From Ruminococcaceae bacterium UBA6364 (GTDB lineage: Bacteria > Bacillota > Clostridia > Oscillospirales > Acutalibacteraceae), in contig DJRI01000122.1 in assembly GCA_002440045.1 (NCBI GenBank), positions 1 through 8,817 of the forward strand: a DNA stretch of 8,817 nucleotides. Direction: 5' to 3'. Position 1 is the stretch's first letter; each line of letters starts with the position of its first letter. The notes beneath the pieces are model-generated. The model saw nothing but the letters and a program-made list of their open reading frames with translations, was not told where the DNA came from and did not search any database. The translations under genes and the position numbers were made by a program. Positions 1,273 to 8,817 of the stretch are shown in pieces.

Positions 1273-2199
1273 ATGAGTAACGTAAGAAGAATTATGGCAG
1301 TAGTGCTTGCAGCTGTTCTCTGTGCCCTCTGCTTTACAGCCTGCGGCGGCAGCGGAGATTCAACCACCGCACCGGCAAGCGGCGACGCAAACGCAGCAGT
1401 CACCGGAATTGCAGCCGCAAAATCAATCGCAGACCTCAAGGGCATGAAGATTGCCGCCCAGACCGGCACCTTCCACGCCGACGCACTTAATCAGATTCCG
1501 GATGTTCAGGGCAGCACGCTCCCCGACTTCACCGAGCTTCTCAACGCTGTTAAGAGCGGAACCATCGACGGCTACATCGCCGAAGAGCCGACCGCAATTT
1601 CAGCCTGCAGAATGAACAGCGACCTTGATTACCTTCACCTCAAGAACAACGACACAGGCTTCACCGCAACGGCAGCCGACGTCGGAATCGCAATCGGCCT
1701 CAAGAAAGGCTCCGATCTCCTTGATAAGATGAACGAAGTCATCAAGGGCATCACCGAAGAGCAGAAGGAACAGCTCATGGAGCAGATCATCGCCGTTAAG
1801 GCCGGCGACACCGTTGAAAAGTTCGCCCTTGAAAGCGAAGAACCCGCAAACCCGACCGGAACGCTCAAGGTTGCAATGGAATGCGCCTATGAACCGTACA
1901 ACTGGACCGAGACTTCGTCTGACACCCGCACCCTCGGCGCTGTTGCAATCAGCGGCGAAGGCAAGGAAGGCCAGTATGCAAACGGCTACGACGTTCAGGT
2001 TGCAAAGTATGTTGCAAACAAGCTTGGCATGAAGCTTGAGGTTTATTCCTACGACTGGGATTCACTTATTCCGGCTCTCAACTCCGGCACAGTTGACGCG
2101 ATCGTTGCAGGTATGAGCCCGACAGCAGAGCGTAAGGAACAGATCGACTTCACCGAAACCTACTACGAATCAAACCTCGTTGTAATCTTCAAGAAGTAA
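1273..2199 (+). CDS. Lysine-type ABC transporter substrate-binding lipoprotein, circularly permuted
   Basis: This is a 308-residue extracytoplasmic binding protein of the polar amino acid uptake family. The ATG at 1273 is chosen because AGGAG (1260-1264) lies 8 nt upstream and the signal peptide follows at once; the frame extends to 1207 but would add an odd leader overlapping the terminator. Residues 1-23 are a lipoprotein signal peptide with Cys24 in 'CFTACGG', and a short Gly/Ser/Thr/Ala linker follows. Domain order is unusual. Residues 50-123 are the second-lobe segment ('SIADLKGMKIAAQTGT' to 'IDGYIAEEPTA'). Residues 136-175 are the return segment that normally ends the protein ('VGIAIGLKKGSDLL'). 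Residues 197-308 are the segment that normally begins it ('LKVAMECAYEPYNW', 'GYDVQVAKYVANKLG', 'AGMSPTAERKEQIDFTETYY'). Ligand-type residues persist (Arg287; Thr64-Gly-Thr66; Glu104/Glu105 where Asp is common). The lysine riboswitch upstream suggests lysine as substrate. The family call is very secure; the permutation rests on remembered family order. Confidence 0.93.
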   Translation: MSNVRRIMAVVLAAVLCALCFTACGGSGDSTTAPASGDANAAVTGIAAAKSIADLKGMKIAAQTGTFHADALNQIPDVQGSTLPDFTELLNAVKSGTIDGYIAEEPTAISACRMNSDLDYLHLKNNDTGFTATAADVGIAIGLKKGSDLLDKMNEVIKGITEEQKEQLMEQIIAVKAGDTVEKFALESEEPANPTGTLKVAMECAYEPYNWTETSSDTRTLGAVAISGEGKEGQYANGYDVQVAKYVANKLGMKLEVYSYDWDSLIPALNSGTVDAIVAGMSPTAERKEQIDFTETYYESNLVVIFKK

Positions 2200-2217
2200 A
2201 TTTTTAAAAGCAGAAAC

Positions 2218-2252
2218 TTGCGGCAGGCGGTTTTGAAAATCGCTTGCCGCGA
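2218..2252 (+). promoter_or_regulatory. Stable intercistronic hairpin between binding-protein and permease genes
   Basis: GCGGCAGGCG (2220-2229) pairs with CGCTTGCCGC (2241-2250) with one G-U pair, and the helix can continue inward through TTT/AAA. No T-run follows (GAATAAAATAAC), so it is not a standard terminator. Such hairpins between a binding-protein gene and its permease commonly protect the upstream mRNA, giving more binding protein than membrane subunits. That role is inferred here. Confidence 0.7.
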
Positions 2253-2283
2253 ATAAAATAACTAAAGTTTGGCGGAATTTGAA

Positions 2284-3048
2284 ATGAGTTTTTTACAGGA
2301 TGTCCTTAATATTTTTACCAAATACTATCCCCAGCTGCTAAAGGGTGTCGGCAACACAATGCTGCTCGCCCTTGTCGGTACCGTTGTGGGTCTTGCAATC
2401 GGCCTTCTGACAGGTATCATCCGAACAGCACCGATGTCGAAAAATCCCGTTCTTCGTATTCTCCATAAGATTCTGAACGCAATCATCGCCGTTTATGTTG
2501 AAATCTTCCGCGGAACACCGATGATGGTTCAGTCAATGGTCATCTATTGGGGCTATGCTTTTGCAACAAACGGAAAAACGCTTGCGCTCATCCCCTCCGG
2601 TATTCTCATCGTTTCGATCAACACCGGTGCATATATGGCGGAGATAGTCCGCGGCGGAATCATTTCAATTGACAAGGGACAGTTTGAGGGTGCAATGAGT
2701 ATCGGTATGACCCATGCACAGACTATGTTCAAGGTCATCATTCCGCAGGTTATGCGCAACATTCTCCCCTCGGTCAGCAACGAGTTCGTCATCAACATCA
2801 AGGACACCTCTGTTCTTAACGTTATCGGCGTTACGGAGCTTTACTACTTCGCCGGAATCATCAAAAGGCAGACCTTTGAAACCTTCCAGACCTATCTCAT
2901 CGTCTGCGTCCTTTATTTCATTCTGACGTTCACAATAACAAGACTGCTTCGCCTTGTTGAAAAGAAGCTGGCCGGAAAAGAAACCTACACCGTTTTCGGT
3001 TCGCAGTCAAACAGTGCTGCGGAAATTCATGTTTCAAAGGAGGCGTAA
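2284..3048 (+). CDS. Polar amino acid ABC transporter permease (probable lysine uptake)
   Basis: This is a 254-residue inner membrane subunit of the His/Glu/Gln/Arg/Lys-type uptake transporters, the usual length for the family. About five membrane segments are visible, near residues 22-46, 62-92, 100-122, 150-175 and 205-230. Family landmarks include '[17 protein letters not shown]' at 21-37, '[11 protein letters not shown]' at 73-83 and the cytoplasmic coupling (EAA) loop '[11 protein letters not shown]' at 132-142, which docks on the ATPase. The ATG at 2284 is preferred because GGCGGA (2271-2276) lies 7 nt upstream. An in-frame TTG at 2269 would add five residues but lacks a binding site. 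It is the only permease gene here, so the channel is expected to be a homodimer. Its stop lies 4 nt before the ATPase gene, and its last codons contain that gene's ribosome binding site, so translation of the two is probably coupled. Confidence 0.93.
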
Positions 3049-3052
3049 GACC

Positions 3053-3793
3053 ATGGCTGAAAAAGTGATTGAATTGAAGGGGCTTGAAAAAAGCTTCGGC
3101 GAAAACAGCGTTCTCAAAGGAATCAGCCTTTCGGTTGAAAAGGGCGACGTTCTCAGCATAATCGGCGCTTCCGGCTCCGGAAAAAGCACCATGCTGCGCT
3201 GCATAAATCTCCTTGAAACTCCGACAAAGGGACAAATACTTTACCACGGCAAGGACGTTGCCGCAGGCGAGGTTCAGCTTTCAAGATACAGAGCAAAGGT
3301 CGGAATGGTTTTCCAATCCTTCAACCTTTTCAACAACATGACTGCCCTTGAGAACTGCATCACCGGCCAGGTTTCGGTCCTCAAGCGCAACCGCAAGGAA
3401 GCGAAGGAGATTGCCATGAAGTACCTTGAAAAGGTCGGCATGGCACCGTATATCGAAGCAAGACCGGCTCAGCTTTCCGGCGGACAGAAGCAGCGCGTTG
3501 CAATAGCGCGCGCACTGGCTATGAACCCCGAGGTGCTTTTGTTCGATGAGCCCACAAGCGCGCTTGACCCGCAAATGGTGGGCGAGGTTTTAAGCGTTAT
3601 GCGAACGCTGGCGGCAGAGGGGCTTACAATGATAGTTGTAACTCACGAAATGGCTTTTGCGCGCGACGTTTCAAACAACGTTGTGTTTATGACCGACGGC
3701 GTTATTTGCGAAAGCGGCTCTCCCAAAGAAATTTTTGAGTCGCCGAAAAAAGCAGAAACAAAAGATTTCCTTTCGCGCTTTTTGGCAAACTGA
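3053..3793 (+). CDS. Polar amino acid ABC transporter ATP-binding protein (probable lysine uptake)
   Basis: This 246-residue cytoplasmic ATPase powers uptake through the adjacent permease. All nucleotide-binding motifs are intact: Walker A 'GASGSGKST' (38-46), Q-loop Gln88 in 'VFQSFNLF', ABC signature 'LSGGQ' (141-145), Walker B 'VLLFDE' (161-166), D-loop 'SALD' (169-172) and switch His198 in 'VTHEM'. Length and motif spacing match GlnQ/HisP-type subunits. The ATG at 3053 is chosen because AAAGGAGG (3036-3043) lies 9 nt upstream; longer in-frame readings run into the permease gene. It is the last gene of the riboswitch-controlled operon and is followed by a strong terminator. Nothing appears truncated. 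Substrate choice is not encoded in this subunit; lysine is inferred from the leader RNA. Confidence 0.96.
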
Positions 3794-3828
3794 AAAGTTA
3801 AACATAATACAACAAAACAAAACAAAAC

Positions 3829-3871
3829 GCTTCGCAGTATTCGGAAAAAACGTTTACTGCGAAGCTTTTTT
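3829..3871. terminator. Bidirectional intrinsic terminator between convergent operons
   Basis: GCTTCGCAGTA (3829-3839) and TACTGCGAAGC (3855-3865) form a perfect 11-pair stem. On the + strand six T residues follow (3866-3871). On the - strand the stem is followed by the complement of CAAAA repeats (3813-3827), read as TTTTG repeated. It therefore can stop both the transporter operon and the opposing kinase operon, whose stop codon is at 3885. Confidence 0.9.
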
Positions 3872-3884
3872 AATGAGAAAATTA

Positions 3885-5135
3885 CTATGCTCTTAATTCA
3901 AGAGTGAAAATTATTGTTTCGGGCTTTTTATAATCGCAGGAAAGCCTTCCGCCGTTAATTTGAGCGAGGGAACGGGCGGCTGAAAGCCCTATTCCGCATC
4001 CGCCGCTTGTTTGCGTGCGTGCTTCGTCCGCTCTGTAAAAGCGTTCAAACAGCCTTTCGGGCGGCGCTTTCGGCAAAGCTGAGCAGGTGTTTTCAAAAAT
4101 TGCCGTAACTTTTTTGCCGTCTTTTTTTAACGAAAACATGAATGTGCCGCCGTCGTTTGCGTATTTTGCCGCATTGTCAAAAAGCAAAAGGAAAATGCGC
4201 TCAACATCGTTTTTGTCCGCCGTTGCAAAAACATCTTTTTCTATATCTTCTTCGGCTGTGATGTTTCTTAAAGCAAAGCGCTCTGCAAATTGGCTAAAGG
4301 TGTTTAAAGAAAGCTTTGACAAATCGAATTTTTCGGCTTTTTTCGTTTCTTTAAGCTCGTCTGCCTTTGCAAGCGTCAAAAGGTTCTCTGTCAGCCCCGA
4401 CAGACGCTTCGTTTGCTCTTTTATGTTTTCGGTCTTTTTAGAAACGCCCTGCGTCAGCTCAAGCGCCTCGGTGTTTGCAAGAATTATTGCAAGCGGAGTT
4501 TTGATTTCGTGCCCAGCGTTTGTAACAAATTGTTTTTGCTTTTCAAAATTTTCGGCAAACGGCTTTACAGCTCTTTTTGAAAGAAGCGTCAGCGTGACAA
4601 GCATTACCGCAATACAGATTAAGCCGACAAAAAGCGAAATAAGCAAAACACGAAGCATTGCGGCAAGCTCTTCTGAGGTGTCAAGAAAAATCAGCGTGAC
4701 TTTGCCGTCGTCCGAAGAAGCTTTAATGTATTTGTACTTTTCGAGCCGTCCGCTTTCATTTTTTGAGTCGAGGGCTTTTTTTGCAAGTGCTTTTGCTTCC
4801 TCCGACGAAACCGCCGACGTTCTGCTTGTATCTGTAAAAATAACGTTTTTGTCGCTGTCTGTGCGCACCGTGAAGAAGTTGGACGACAAAAACATATCGT
4901 GTTCGTTTTTCGGCGCGCGAAGATTTCGCGGCACGCCGGGCGGGGCAGGGGTGTTTTTGTCTGGCAGCTTGTCAATATCGCCCTCGCTTCTTGCAATCAG
5001 CGAAAGCTTTTCGTCGGTTTGCTTTGCGGTCATAGCGGCGTTTGTCAGGTTAATTACGCCTAAAAGCACGGCAATAAGCGCGATTATTGCAATCATTGCG
5101 GTAACGACAAATCTTTTTTGAAGCGCTTTAATCAT
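3885..5135 (-). CDS. Membrane sensor histidine kinase
   Basis: This 416-residue kinase would autophosphorylate and pass phosphate to the regulator encoded just upstream. Membrane helix 1 is at about 9-33, an extracellular sensor region at about 34-160 (with a Pro-rich stretch near 58-75), and helix 2 at about 161-185. There is little room for a HAMP domain: only about 15 residues separate helix 2 from the H-box. The phosphoacceptor is His209 in 'FVTNAGHEIKTPL'. The ATPase part has an N-box 'LLFDNAAKYAN' (Asn321), a weak G1 site 'FENTCSALP' in place of the usual D-x-G-x-G, an F-box 'LFERFYRADEAR' (362-373) and G2 'GGCGIGL' (378-384). The start at 5135 has GGAGG (5147-5143) 7 nt upstream and overlaps the regulator stop as ATGA, implying coupled translation. 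A longer reading to 5237 would overlap the regulator heavily and is rejected. The signal sensed is unknown. Confidence 0.93.
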   Translation of the reverse strand: MIKALQKRFVVTAMIAIIALIAVLLGVINLTNAAMTAKQTDEKLSLIARSEGDIDKLPDKNTPAPPGVPRNLRAPKNEHDMFLSSNFFTVRTDSDKNVIFTDTSRTSAVSSEEAKALAKKALDSKNESGRLEKYKYIKASSDDGKVTLIFLDTSEELAAMLRVLLISLFVGLICIAVMLVTLTLLSKRAVKPFAENFEKQKQFVTNAGHEIKTPLAIILANTEALELTQGVSKKTENIKEQTKRLSGLTENLLTLAKADELKETKKAEKFDLSKLSLNTFSQFAERFALRNITAEEDIEKDVFATADKNDVERIFLLLFDNAAKYANDGGTFMFSLKKDGKKVTAIFENTCSALPKAPPERLFERFYRADEARTQTSGGCGIGLSAARSLAQINGGRLSCDYKKPETIIFTLELRA

Positions 5136-5806
5136 TTTGTTTCCTCCAATTTGTAGCCGATTCCGCGTTTTGCTTTTATCGTGACGTTTGCGCCCGCGCA
5201 TGACAGTCGGCGGCGCAAGGTGGAAATATAGACCCACACCGTGTCAAGCGGCGTGTCGGTGTCATAGCCCCAAACTTTTGTTAAAATATCCTCACCCGAA
5301 ATGTAAATATCTTTGTTAAGCATAAAAAGCTCTAAAATGCGGTATTCGGTTTTTGAAAGAGTAATGCTTTCTTTCTCTGAAGAGAGCACAAAAGTCTGCA
5401 TATTAAGCGAGGCGTTGCCGAATTTAAGCTCGTTCGGGGTGTATTCTTCGCGACGGCGAAGCATGGCGCGCACCCTTGCAAGAAGCTCGCCTGTGTTAAA
5501 GGGCTTAACAAGATAATCGTCCGCGCCGAGGTCAAGACCCAAAATGCGGTCGTCAATATCGGATTTTGCCGTCAGAAGCAAAACGGGCGTGTTTATGCCT
5601 TTTTTTCGTATTTCTTTTAAGACTTCAAGACCGCTCATCTTCGGCATCATAATGTCAAGAATTGCACCGTCGTATTTTTCGTTTTCAAGATAATACAAAG
5701 CGTCCTCTCCGTTATAAACGGCGTCTACAGTGTATTTGTAAAAATCAAGAATTTCCGAAACAGCGTCCGACAGAGCTTTTTCGTCCTCTGCATAAAGAAG
5801 CTTCAT
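5132..5806 (-). CDS. OmpR/PhoB-family response regulator
   Basis: This 224-residue DNA-binding regulator is the standard length for the family. The receiver domain (about 1-115) has the acidic pair Glu7/Asp8, phosphoacceptor Asp51 in 'AILDIMMPK', Thr79 in 'VLLLTAK' and Lys101 in 'YLVKPF'. The C-terminal winged helix (about 128-222) shows 'LSKTEYRILELFML', 'VWGYDTDTPLDTVWVYISTL' and the wing 'TIKAKRGIGYKLE'. AAAGGTG (5820-5814) lies about 7 nt before the ATG, next to the stop of the glycosidase gene (12 nt gap). It is therefore likely expressed from the glycosidase promoter and translated in step with the kinase. Its targets are not shown here; the inverted repeat at 7972-7992 is a candidate for autoregulation, without direct evidence. 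Confidence 0.96.
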   Translation of the reverse strand: MKLLYAEDEKALSDAVSEILDFYKYTVDAVYNGEDALYYLENEKYDGAILDIMMPKMSGLEVLKEIRKKGINTPVLLLTAKSDIDDRILGLDLGADDYLVKPFNTGELLARVRAMLRRREEYTPNELKFGNASLNMQTFVLSSEKESITLSKTEYRILELFMLNKDIYISGEDILTKVWGYDTDTPLDTVWVYISTLRRRLSCAGANVTIKAKRGIGYKLEETK

Positions 5807-5818
5807 AAACTCACACCT

Positions 5819-7942
5819 TTAAAAAACAACTTCTATTTCTTTCGGAATGTCATAAACAGGCTCTTTTTCGCGCTCAAGCTTGATTTTTATTTCGCCGAAC
5901 GGCGTCGGAATACAAACGTCTGCAAACTCAAGCCCCAAAAGCGACGGCGAAAGGCGGATTTTTTTAAAGCCGGGTTCAAGAATTTCAAGCCCCGAAAGAG
6001 CCTTCGGAACAGAATAAAGCGGCGAGCCGCCCCACGCGTGGCTGTGGTCAAAAGAATATGTCGGCTCGGGCGCAATAAACCCTTCGACAAGCCCTTTTTT
6101 GCATTTTTTTACAGGCTCTTTCCAACGCTCCGAGAGTTTTAACGTGTATTCGTCGCGCAGACCGTTTTTAAAAATCGCTTCAAACAGAAAATGCGCGAAA
6201 TACGGCTGAAAATCGCCGAGAGAGTCGTTTTCAAAAGCTTCTTTTATAAGATGCCTTGCAGTGCTCTCACTGCATATTCCGAAGCACGCCGCGAGTATGT
6301 TCGCGTGCTTGCGGTAATAACGCAAAGCCGTGTTTTGAGGCATATAATACGCCAAAAGCTTTTTGTCGGTCGGCGTGTTAAGCCCCTCAAAATAAAGCTC
6401 TTTTTCGCTGTCATAAAGAAGCGTGTTAACGGCTTTTTTAATGCTTTCGGAAAGGCTCTTAACGTCGGCTGCCAAAGCGCTTTCGTGCAGCTCGCCGAAA
6501 ATTTTCTCAGCCGTTTTAAGCATTGCAAAAAAGTAAATGTTAAGGCACGTTTGCCCAAGCGCCTTCGGCGGGTGATGAAGCGAGATGCCGTCTGTGTATA
6601 TCCAATCAATAAACATATAGTCGGGCGGCGTTTCAATAAGTCCGTTATCGCCGAGATACGTTTTAAACCGCTCAATAAGCATAACAAGCGCGTCAAGCGT
6701 GTTTTCTAAAAGCGATTTGTCGCCCGTTAGCATATACACATCATAAAGCATAAGCACCCAAATAAGGCTGTAGGTTGTGTGGAACATTCTGCCGCCGTGA
6801 TAACGGAGAAGCTCTGCCGTTCTTAAAATATCGGCTTTTGCAAGGCTCATATCGCCGAAAGAAAACGCCGTCATAAGGCTTTCTATGTAATAGTCGCCCG
6901 TGCAGGCAAGCGGCTCGCAGTGGCGCGGCGAATCAAGGTGAATAAGCTGGCGGCACTGCTTTAAAGTGTGGGCGCATACGTCTAAAACGTCGTTAAGCTC
7001 GCTGTCGGAAAGGCGCGTTTTGCTCTCGTTAAAAACGGGGTAAAACGTGTTTATAATTCCGACATCGACCGTGCAAGGCTCATTACCGAGATTTTCAGCC
7101 TCTATAAAAAGTCCGCCGATGCTGTGAAGCTCAATTCCGCGGTAGCTTGAAAATCCTTTAAGAATGACCGTTTCTTTTGTGCCTTCTTCGTCTGTTTCAA
7201 AGCATCTTACAGAAAGCTTTACGGGGGAGTGGGAGCCGTTTTTAAACGATAAAAACGCCGCATAGATTTTATTAAACTCAAACACAAAGGATTTCTTTTC
7301 AAACGGTGCAAGAAAAAGCTTGCCGCCGTTTTCGGGAGCCAAAAAGACTTCGGTGCGCGCTTCCAAAGGCAGTGTTTTGCAGTGCCAAATGTTTTGAATT
7401 TCTGCGGCGGGAGAAAACTCGTCCGCACTCTTTAGCCCGTCATAATAATACGGCCTTTCATATGCGCCGTTTCTTCGGACGCACCACGTTTTGTCGGTGG
7501 AAATATATGTTTTTGAGCCGTCCGAAAAAACAACCTCGCCGCTTAGCATAAACCCGCCGTGACCCGAAGAATATTCGCATATTTTCACGGGCATAAGCTT
7601 AACTGTCGCAAAGAACGCCGCGGTTTTGCCGCCTATATCGGCAGAAAGCGTCGAAGCGTAGTGCGACGGGCGCGCTTCGTCGTTAAAAAGAAAATCGCCG
7701 CCCACAGGGATAGGGCCTGTTATTGCGGCTTTGCCGTTTATATAAAGGCAAAATTCAGTGTCGCCGCTTACAAAGAGATTAATTTTATCAACCTCTTTTT
7801 CAAATTTGTATTCTTTAAAAAATTCTGCGACGGCATAGTTTCCGCACTCTTCTTTTTTGTCGCTGAATCCGCTGTAAACCGTGTTTCTGTAGTCTTTGTA
7901 ACGCGCTTCGTCAAGCCAAATCCATTTTTCGCAAAACTCCAT
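5819..7942 (-). CDS. Cytoplasmic GH78-type glycosidase (alpha-L-rhamnosidase-like)
   Basis: This is a 707-residue enzyme without signal peptide, so it should act in the cytoplasm on imported glycosides or oligosaccharides. It begins 'EKWIWLDEARYKDYRN', an N-terminal beta-sandwich as in rhamnosidases (about 1-300). An (alpha/alpha)6 barrel follows (about 305-640) and a closing beta domain (about 640-707). The barrel has 'LDSPRHCEPLACTGD' (336-350), matching the GH78 pattern D-x-P-x4-E-x6-G-D with Glu343 and Asp350 in the acid-residue positions. It also has 'DHSHAWGGSPLY' (632-643) and 'LEPGFKKIRLSP' (655-666), both typical of the family's end. Glu626 is one candidate for the second catalytic carboxylate. 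The canonical Cys/Arg/Trp of the 'DCP...GWTGD' form are Ser/Cys/Cys here, so substrate could differ from plain rhamnosides. AGGGAG (7955-7950) is 7 nt before the ATG. It is the first gene of the unit with the two-component system. Confidence 0.78.
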   Translation of the reverse strand: MEFCEKWIWLDEARYKDYRNTVYSGFSDKKEECGNYAVAEFFKEYKFEKEVDKINLFVSGDTEFCLYINGKAAITGPIPVGGDFLFNDEARPSHYASTLSADIGGKTAAFFATVKLMPVKICEYSSGHGGFMLSGEVVFSDGSKTYISTDKTWCVRRNGAYERPYYYDGLKSADEFSPAAEIQNIWHCKTLPLEARTEVFLAPENGGKLFLAPFEKKSFVFEFNKIYAAFLSFKNGSHSPVKLSVRCFETDEEGTKETVILKGFSSYRGIELHSIGGLFIEAENLGNEPCTVDVGIINTFYPVFNESKTRLSDSELNDVLDVCAHTLKQCRQLIHLDSPRHCEPLACTGDYYIESLMTAFSFGDMSLAKADILRTAELLRYHGGRMFHTTYSLIWVLMLYDVYMLTGDKSLLENTLDALVMLIERFKTYLGDNGLIETPPDYMFIDWIYTDGISLHHPPKALGQTCLNIYFFAMLKTAEKIFGELHESALAADVKSLSESIKKAVNTLLYDSEKELYFEGLNTPTDKKLLAYYMPQNTALRYYRKHANILAACFGICSESTARHLIKEAFENDSLGDFQPYFAHFLFEAIFKNGLRDEYTLKLSERWKEPVKKCKKGLVEGFIAPEPTYSFDHSHAWGGSPLYSVPKALSGLEILEPGFKKIRLSPSLLGLEFADVCIPTPFGEIKIKLEREKEPVYDIPKEIEVVF

Positions 7943-8057: not shown

Positions 8058-8817
8058 TTATATTATTTTGCCTTTTCTGATGTCAACAAGGTCGCGATAG
8101 CTTATAAGCTCAACGCCGCTGTCTTTAAACGCCTTGTGAACCTCGGGGTCTTTCATAACAAGGTATTCCCAATAGCGCCTTTGCCATCTTCCCGTAATTG
8201 CTTTCATTTCGTCGGTGTCAAGCGCGGGGTGGACGTATGTTTCGCAAATTCCCTCGGGAATATTTGTGAGATAGTTAATAAAATTCGCCTTAAAGCCTTC
8301 GTATGTATCGGCGTCTTTTATCTGCTCGGGGAAGATAAGGTAATCGGGCATGGGTACTTTGTTTATCTTCCCGAAAAATCCCGAAAAACGGCAAGCCGCT
8401 TTAAAAAGCCACATCGGGGTGCCGTCGGGGCACTGAGAGGGCAGGGGCTTTGAGAACATTCTGAACGGATAGCCCTTTTTGCCGCAAAGCGCAAGCGTTT
8501 TGGGGAGCATTTTAAGCTTTCCGTTAAGACCGTACAAAGCACCCATGTGCGAGTCAACGTGCGAGGGCTTCATACCCTTTTTTTCGCAATATTCAATCTG
8601 CGCAAGGCTTTCTTTAACAGCTTCGTCATAGTCGCAGTGGGCTTCAAAATCTTCGCTTTCGGGCCACATTCTTCCCTCGGGGGTCATAAGGCTTTTGCCG
8701 TTTGTCAAGGGCTTCCAGGGGAAGCGCTCTTTCCATTCGTTTGTGTGCGTAAGATGAACGCCTATAGCATATTGCGGATGCGCCTTTGCAAACTCAATTG
8801 CGGCGTCTGCGGCGGGG
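8058..8817 (-). CDS. ChbG/YdjC-like carbohydrate deacetylase, C-terminal part (5' end outside window)
   Basis: The frame stays open to the right edge, giving 252 visible residues. The start and the first metal-binding acidic residues lie outside. A TTG at 8708 is internal, because clear family sequence precedes it: 'YAIGVHLTHTNEW' at visible residues 16-28 corresponds to the G-x-H-L-x-L-T strand. Next comes 'SHVDSHMGALY' (85-95), matching the family's H-x-D-S-H, with His86 and His90 as likely metal or catalytic ligands. 'CETYVHPALD' (191-200) matches the late H-P motif (His196). The family removes acetyl groups from N-acetylated oligosaccharides such as chitooligosaccharides, using a divalent metal. 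The substrate here is not determined. It ends in its own terminator and so is likely a separate unit from the glycosidase genes, although the shared carbohydrate theme is suggestive. Confidence 0.82.
   Translation of the reverse strand, partial: PAADAAIEFAKAHPQYAIGVHLTHTNEWKERFPWKPLTNGKSLMTPEGRMWPESEDFEAHCDYDEAVKESLAQIEYCEKKGMKPSHVDSHMGALYGLNGKLKMLPKTLALCGKKGYPFRMFSKPLPSQCPDGTPMWLFKAACRFSGFFGKINKVPMPDYLIFPEQIKDADTYEGFKANFINYLTNIPEGICETYVHPALDTDEMKAITGRWQRRYWEYLVMKDPEVHKAFKDSGVELISYRDLVDIRKGKII

Follow-up and report, generated by a model that had tools for sequence, protein, structure and literature searches.

We analysed a stretch of 8,817 nucleotides from Ruminococcaceae bacterium UBA6364 (contig DJRI01000122.1; hereafter the window), in which an open reading frame (ORF) at positions 1273-2199 encodes a 308-residue relative of the polar amino-acid-binding proteins of the SBP_bac_3 family. 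These proteins are textbook Venus flytraps and are widely used as sensor scaffolds. Our data lead us to view the window protein, with a probability of about 0.78, as a circularly permuted polar amino-acid-binding lipoprotein that is predicted to form one two-lobed domain and is likely to capture lysine for the adjacent ATP-binding cassette (ABC) importer. The ORF is real, with an ATG start and a GGAG ahead of it at 1261-1264.

In the usual order of the family the chain begins with a lobe 1 segment, crosses to lobe 2 and returns to lobe 1; the window protein instead runs from lobe 2 through the return segment to the lobe 1 segment (Table 1). A PDB sequence search aligned its residues 237-307 with residues 63-133 of a single canonical chain (4ymx) and its residues 52-163 with residues 141-247 of that chain, and AncQR (4zv1) likewise matched in two stretches in swapped order on one canonical chain. 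These alignments, together with a match of the permuted-protein profile to tandem domains discussed below, establish homology to solved amino-acid-binding proteins in both lobes. Profiles cut from the family located one copy of each piece, residues 47-176 covering lobe 2 and the return segment and residues 197-308 the segment that usually comes first, and these are the double matches in swapped order that the original prediction, made from the letters of the DNA without database searches, had proposed to look for; the blocks it had drawn (50-123, 136-175, 176-196 and 197-308) were right to within a few residues. Against a profile built from normal-order proteins only, the natural chain matched in three pieces (84.7, 17.4 and 113.8 bits), and the same chain rotated in silico to begin at residue 195 gave a single match of 216.5 bits. 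When all ORFs were scored with this profile of 214 columns doubled to 2 x 214, the match to the window protein began at column 98 and finished at column 308, which is column 94 of the second copy; the chain therefore holds the fold once, short of a few columns at the cut. No match to a second copy of either lobe was found on contig C133. Each block thus occurs once, the old ends are joined and the new ends lie elsewhere, as a circular permutation demands, and the first reading of the protein as a circularly permuted amino-acid-binding lipoprotein is confirmed by the PDB stretches, the profiles and the rotated match.

At E <= 0.001, PF00497 (SBP_bac_3) and PF10613 were the only Pfam matches of the window protein. 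PF00497 scored 84.9 bits against a gathering score of 26.4 over residues 235-307 (profile positions 20-91 of 132), so that the current model covers the lobe 1 segment only. Pfam membership of SBP_bac_3 is not defined by segment order; because the order is swapped, we file the protein as a circularly permuted branch of the family and not as an ordinary member.

An AlphaFold model computed from one chain only had a predicted local distance difference test score (pLDDT) of 91.0 and a predicted template modelling score of 0.82. Residues 24-39 formed the sole stretch below 50, and residues 45-308 were modelled with high confidence throughout, including helices at residues 149-158 and 162-176 of the return segment and the bridge between the old ends (pLDDT blocks of about 96-98), whose median length is 19 residues among 56 proteins of window-type order. 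A VIA match paired residues 44-131 with domain 2 of TmArgBP (6gpm). The model also has a helix at residues 4-21, ahead of a lipobox-like FTA-C24 in which F at -3 is not the commonest letter of the lipobox rule; C24 is invariant across 19 homologues.

The model moves the break away from where it had been placed, exactly at the first hinge crossing. Structural matches to canonical lobe 1 stop at model residues 299-305 (5owf, 196-300; 4p0i, 196-301; 6y16, 148-305), which sets the strand at residues 302-307 beyond that crossing, and the hinge residues of GlnBP, which we take to be 85-89 and 181-185, also place it past the hinge. This strand therefore probably sits in lobe 2, and the break is probably the loop that follows it, roughly one strand further along the chain than the first hinge crossing, which would leave both hinge strands in place. 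The idea of a single covalent hinge crossing was dropped on the same two grounds.

The swapped order is conserved among relatives, as the original prediction had suggested checking. Among the best 120 of 6130 homologues with E <= 0.001 (8000 scored), 118 gave a single collinear local alignment that covers 94% or more of the query, and the other two are shorter (238 and 251 residues, covering 77% and 81%). When one genome was scanned per species, 109 relatives came to light, of which 80 named loci were kept: 56 have the window-type order, 20 the normal order and four have lobe 2 split around lobe 1. These counts are not frequencies, because the scan patterns came from permuted proteins, and the same holds for the 99 permuted and 69 normal distinct proteins, which were fetched with permuted queries, with ORFs of more than 620 residues excluded, and give no frequency estimate. 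Across 249 genomes of the phylum, most of the matches listed fell into two pieces, as expected of the normal order. The named records are mostly Clostridia metagenome-assembled genomes (MAGs), and a few are labelled Erysipelotrichaceae. Since each block occurs once in one confident model, no second lobe copy was matched and the order is kept in independent assemblies, the data support a whole circularly permuted domain and not two gene fragments, as first proposed; neither a predicted fold other than a two-lobed one nor a full normal-order domain in the chain was found.

Several lines of evidence connect the protein to lysine import. We call the window-type order alpha and two other cut points found in the same subfamily beta and gamma, the gamma break lying inside lobe 2. 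A lysine riboswitch, which like the other cut points had gone unmentioned in the original prediction, stands upstream of the binding-protein gene in the window (Table 1), and it does so in 24/24 window-type loci and in 13/13 other subfamily loci tested (nine normal, one beta, three gamma). Twenty further sources gave a riboswitch in six (L009, L011, L014, L016, L033 and L035, with L011 and L035 being the same place) and none in 14, including the distant permutants L018-L022, L024, L026, L027, L032 and L034 and the normal-order kin L010/L031, L012 and L013. Permease and ATPase genes follow in all 47 of the 56 window-type loci whose downstream sequence exceeds 2.2 kb, in 19/20 normal loci, in 3/3 gamma loci and in the one beta locus, and permeases encoded next to normal-order proteins share 57-69% identity with the window permease. 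E203, R287, T66 and E104, which we presume to be equivalent to pocket positions of GlnBP, are identical across all 83 aligned rows; W262, treated likewise, is W in 54 of the 56 alpha rows and F in two. According to the available text of a survey, lysine riboswitches also precede the lysX-lysY ABC transporters (COG0834) of Firmicutes, which are taken as lysine transporters (PMC5584792). Because of the riboswitch, the permease/ATPase operon, the shared pocket residues and this survey, the window protein likely serves a lysine ABC importer as its binding protein, with the chain re-cut and the job unchanged.

Two loci add observations of their own. The source genome carries, on contig C79, a normal-order paralogue (L033:1535-2395) behind its own lysine riboswitch (L033:1273-1444), a natural control for the window protein. 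At L094:5809-7608 a gamma-type permuted binding protein is fused in frame to its permease, giving a chain of 600 residues behind a lysine riboswitch.

Order, single copy of each block, riboswitch match, operon and unchanged pocket residues were computed directly, and from them we infer a working model. The N-terminal cysteine would carry the lipid, and lobe 2 would be held by a flexible stretch of about 20 residues, the anchor falling on this lobe because it comes first in the chain. Residues 177-196 would bridge the old ends, both hinge strands would be kept and the break would fall shortly after the first hinge, within a loop of lobe 2. The cleft would close on lysine as in ordinary members and then deliver it to the permease, and plentiful lysine would lower expression through the riboswitch. 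The rearrangement would thereby have shifted the tether off lobe 1 and onto lobe 2; as the same riboswitch-controlled operon occurs with the normal order and with three breaks, the job is likely to have stayed the same.

Some observations could also fit alternative explanations. NCBIfam and PDB matches of the protein are lysine/arginine/ornithine-, glutamine- and arginine-binding proteins, none above a family cut-off, and the pocket has E at what we take to be the D10 and D157 positions of GlnBP, a trait common to the whole subfamily; both would suit a permuted protein that binds some other polar amino acid (for example arginine, ornithine or glutamine), with the riboswitch merely tying import to lysine. 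We consider this unlikely, given the lysine riboswitch upstream in 37/37 of the subfamily loci tested and the treatment of riboswitch-controlled lysX-lysY as lysine transporters in the available part of the survey (PMC5584792). The break adjoins a hinge strand, so a broken strand could exchange between molecules, and the AlphaFold model was made from one chain; the protein might then pair up as a domain-swapped dimer or consist of two unlatched domains, its cleft built from two chains or its binding weak, with the permutation changing function. This seems more doubtful still, as the monomer is modelled confidently over residues 45-308 and the normal-order relatives have the same pocket letters and operon.

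The source genome itself raises a last objection, being fragmented (180 contigs, 81% complete) and of a kind, the MAG, that does contain misjoins: the swapped order might have arisen from assembly, binning or gene calling, or from fragments of broken neighbouring copies. We give this next to no weight. The protein is encoded in a single open frame, the same order recurs in 56/80 loci and in the homologues aligned above, which come from several sources and include a cluster found on 285 contigs, no second lobe copy was matched on contig C133 and the operon lies directly downstream in 47/47 window-type loci with room for it. The swapped order is not an assembly artefact.

Naturally permuted binding proteins are already known in other families, and what appears to be new here is their occurrence in the SBP_bac_3 family and the varying break. 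The original prediction knew of no such arrangement, which holds for this family in the literature searched and fails more widely, with OpuAC and TpMglB-2 permuted in families of their own. Our search, which lay outside subscription journals and some preprints and whose hits were mostly engineered sensors, found no description of circular permutation in the SBP_bac_3/polar amino-acid family, and the accessible portions of three papers hold nothing on it for SBP_bac_3 proteins (PMC10927120, PMC3597751, PMC9732360). No solved chain but the tandem 6h30 had the permuted order in the best 60 of 80, 102 and 423 PDB sequence matches.

Compared with the PAAT/SBP_bac_3 proteins (GlnH, HisJ, LAO, ArtJ, TmArgBP), the window protein shares PF00497, both lobes, the permease and ATPase operon and, with its normal-order kin, the pocket letters; it differs in the swapped lobes, the predicted anchor on lobe 2 and the old termini bridged by about 20 residues. 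The glycine betaine-binding OpuAC of B. subtilis (PDB 2B4L) is described, in the text available, as a type II protein circularly permuted relative to ProX, the molybdate-binding proteins and CysB (PMC2395249). It is the best sequential structural match to our model, but belongs to another family with another ligand, and identity is 10-13% in the top rows. The Pfam search gave no PF04069-type match (presumably the OpuAC-family accession) in the window protein at E <= 0.001. TpMglB-2 (Tp0684; 'Type Ic / Cluster Bc') is a tethered binding lipoprotein with a naturally permuted chain, and its authors, in the sections available, propose that tethering may explain the permutation (PMC4990184). That protein has a type I fold and a sugar ligand, and being permuted it crosses the hinge a fourth time, whereas the window protein probably keeps two crossings and its homology is to type II amino-acid-binding proteins, not to Type Ic. 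The lysX-lysY systems resemble the window in having a lysine riboswitch before an ABC amino-acid transporter gene, and permuted binding proteins are not mentioned in the accessible part of the survey (PMC5584792).

For the wider family, scoring with the doubled profile indicated four break points, each of them apparently within lobe 2; the lysine-riboswitch importer lineage combines the normal order with three different breaks. A tree of 77 rotated sequences required 14 changes between normal and permuted order, at least six of them forced by starred branches; this tree is a quick one, in which the long branches L005 and L188 are placed uncertainly. A careful tree of 39 rows from the lysine subfamily recovered alpha as one clade (100/98) and gamma as another (100/99), with gamma beside two normal proteins (95/83) and beta with normal proteins (91/91), and needs three order changes in all. 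A single origin of all breaks in this subfamily was rejected at p 0.045 in an approximately unbiased (AU) test, a marginal value for a group named after the tree had been seen; joining alpha with beta gave p 0.012, and joining alpha with gamma was not rejected (p 0.153). Alpha and gamma may thus share a permuted ancestor followed by a second rearrangement, and their different cuts would still need separate rearrangements.

How the permutation arose is suggested by GlnPQ (PDB 6H30), whose tandem domains each have the normal order and are fused to the permease, whereas the window protein is predicted to be a free lipoprotein. The permuted-protein profile matches the central part of the tandem without interruption, from lobe 2 of SBD1 to lobe 1 of SBD2 (101.8 bits), and this collinear match suggests that the binding domain was duplicated and its two outer pieces were then lost, a course that would yield precisely the order of the window protein. 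Leftovers of such a duplication were not found at the chain ends, where the median overlap is 0 columns for alpha, 0 for alpha-prime, -2 for beta and 1 for gamma. Two candidates were set aside: L187 (40 columns), whose near-identical L186 has none in a shorter reading, and L121 (65 columns), which begins at the edge of a contig, within what is probably a tandem array. An overlap of 11 columns in L027 is left without explanation. A comparison of tether lengths was discarded, as a simple Cys pattern had picked the wrong cysteines.

We think it rather probable that polar amino-acid-binding proteins of Bacillota have been permuted repeatedly, at four lobe 2 loops, in free lipoproteins and in permease-fused tandems, that one lysine-riboswitch lineage holds the normal order plus three breaks, and that the tether has repeatedly moved from lobe 1 to lobe 2. 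With the same importer, riboswitch and pocket combined with four different positions of the chain ends (the normal one and three others), this lineage would serve as a natural experiment on tether position and makes the effect of tether position and chain order on folding, lobe closure and docking directly testable. The naturally tolerated break points could be used in sensor design. Domain models assume the chain order of these proteins, and the window protein cautions that a pair of half matches can belong to one permuted whole.

Further loci with permuted or related architectures were recorded. On another contig of the source genome (G000:C120), two more family members were classed as permuted (L034:2419-3279 and L034:4985-5896), one of gamma type, with its break inside lobe 2, and one alpha-like but strongly diverged; L034 gave no riboswitch match. 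Three permease fusions (L176:620-4288, L183:1029-3290 and L188:1837-3429) carry one to about four binding units, beginning with lobe 2 and ending with the lobe 1 segment, followed by a permease domain. At L023, two neighbouring frames (1536-2045 and 2062-5049), which were kept apart here, together resemble an interrupted lobe 2/lobe 1 array with permease and ATPase. Group II intron pieces lie upstream of a gamma-type locus (L095:1429-1688), and COG3943 RNA was found downstream in L092 and L095.

Table 1. Features of the window protein and its operon, in window coordinates.
Feature	Position	Strand	Evidence
Lysine riboswitch aptamer, RF00168	968-1146	+	Rfam, 88.9 bits against gathering 30, full model 1-182
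Circularly permuted amino-acid-binding lipoprotein, 308 residues	1273-2199	+	PDB, Pfam, family profiles, AlphaFold model, rotated chain
Signal peptide and lipobox-like FTA-C24, residues 1-24	1273-1344	+	Read from sequence
Tether, residues 25-46, mostly predicted disordered	1345-1410	+	pLDDT below 50 at residues 24-39
Lobe 2 segment, residues 47-135 (mid-chain in usual order)	1411-1677	+	PDB matches, family and doubled profiles
Return segment to lobe 1, residues 136-176 (C-terminal end in usual order)	1678-1800	+	Profiles
Bridge between old C- and N-termini, residues 177-196	1801-1860	+	Gap separating profile pieces
Lobe 1 segment, residues 197-308 (N-terminal start in usual order)	1861-2196	+	PF00497 match at residues 235-307, profiles
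C-terminal strand, residues 302-307 (LVVIFKK), probably entering lobe 2 just ahead of the break	2176-2193	+	Strand in model; lobe 2 placement inferred
ABC importer permease, polar amino-acid type (start codon as listed mechanically)	2269-3048	+	PF00528; TIGR01726 HEQRo_perm_3TM above cut-off
ABC importer ATPase	3053-3793	+	PF00005; best NCBIfam TcyN, GlnQ, HisP-like, below cut-offs

Elsewhere in the window, positions 390-827 encode a 145-residue protein with a hydrophobic N-terminus and a tail rich in Lys, Ser and Thr, which had no Pfam match at E <= 0.001. Facing the transporter operon on the minus strand are genes for a histidine kinase (HisKA, HATPase_c) and a response regulator (Response_reg, Trans_reg_C) at 3885-5806. 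Also on the minus strand are a 707-residue protein at 5819-7942, with a weak-to-moderate match to the rhamnosidase 6-hairpin domain (PF17389, 36.8 bits against a cut-off of 24.5), and a YdjC-like protein (PF04794) at 8058-8816 that runs off the window end.
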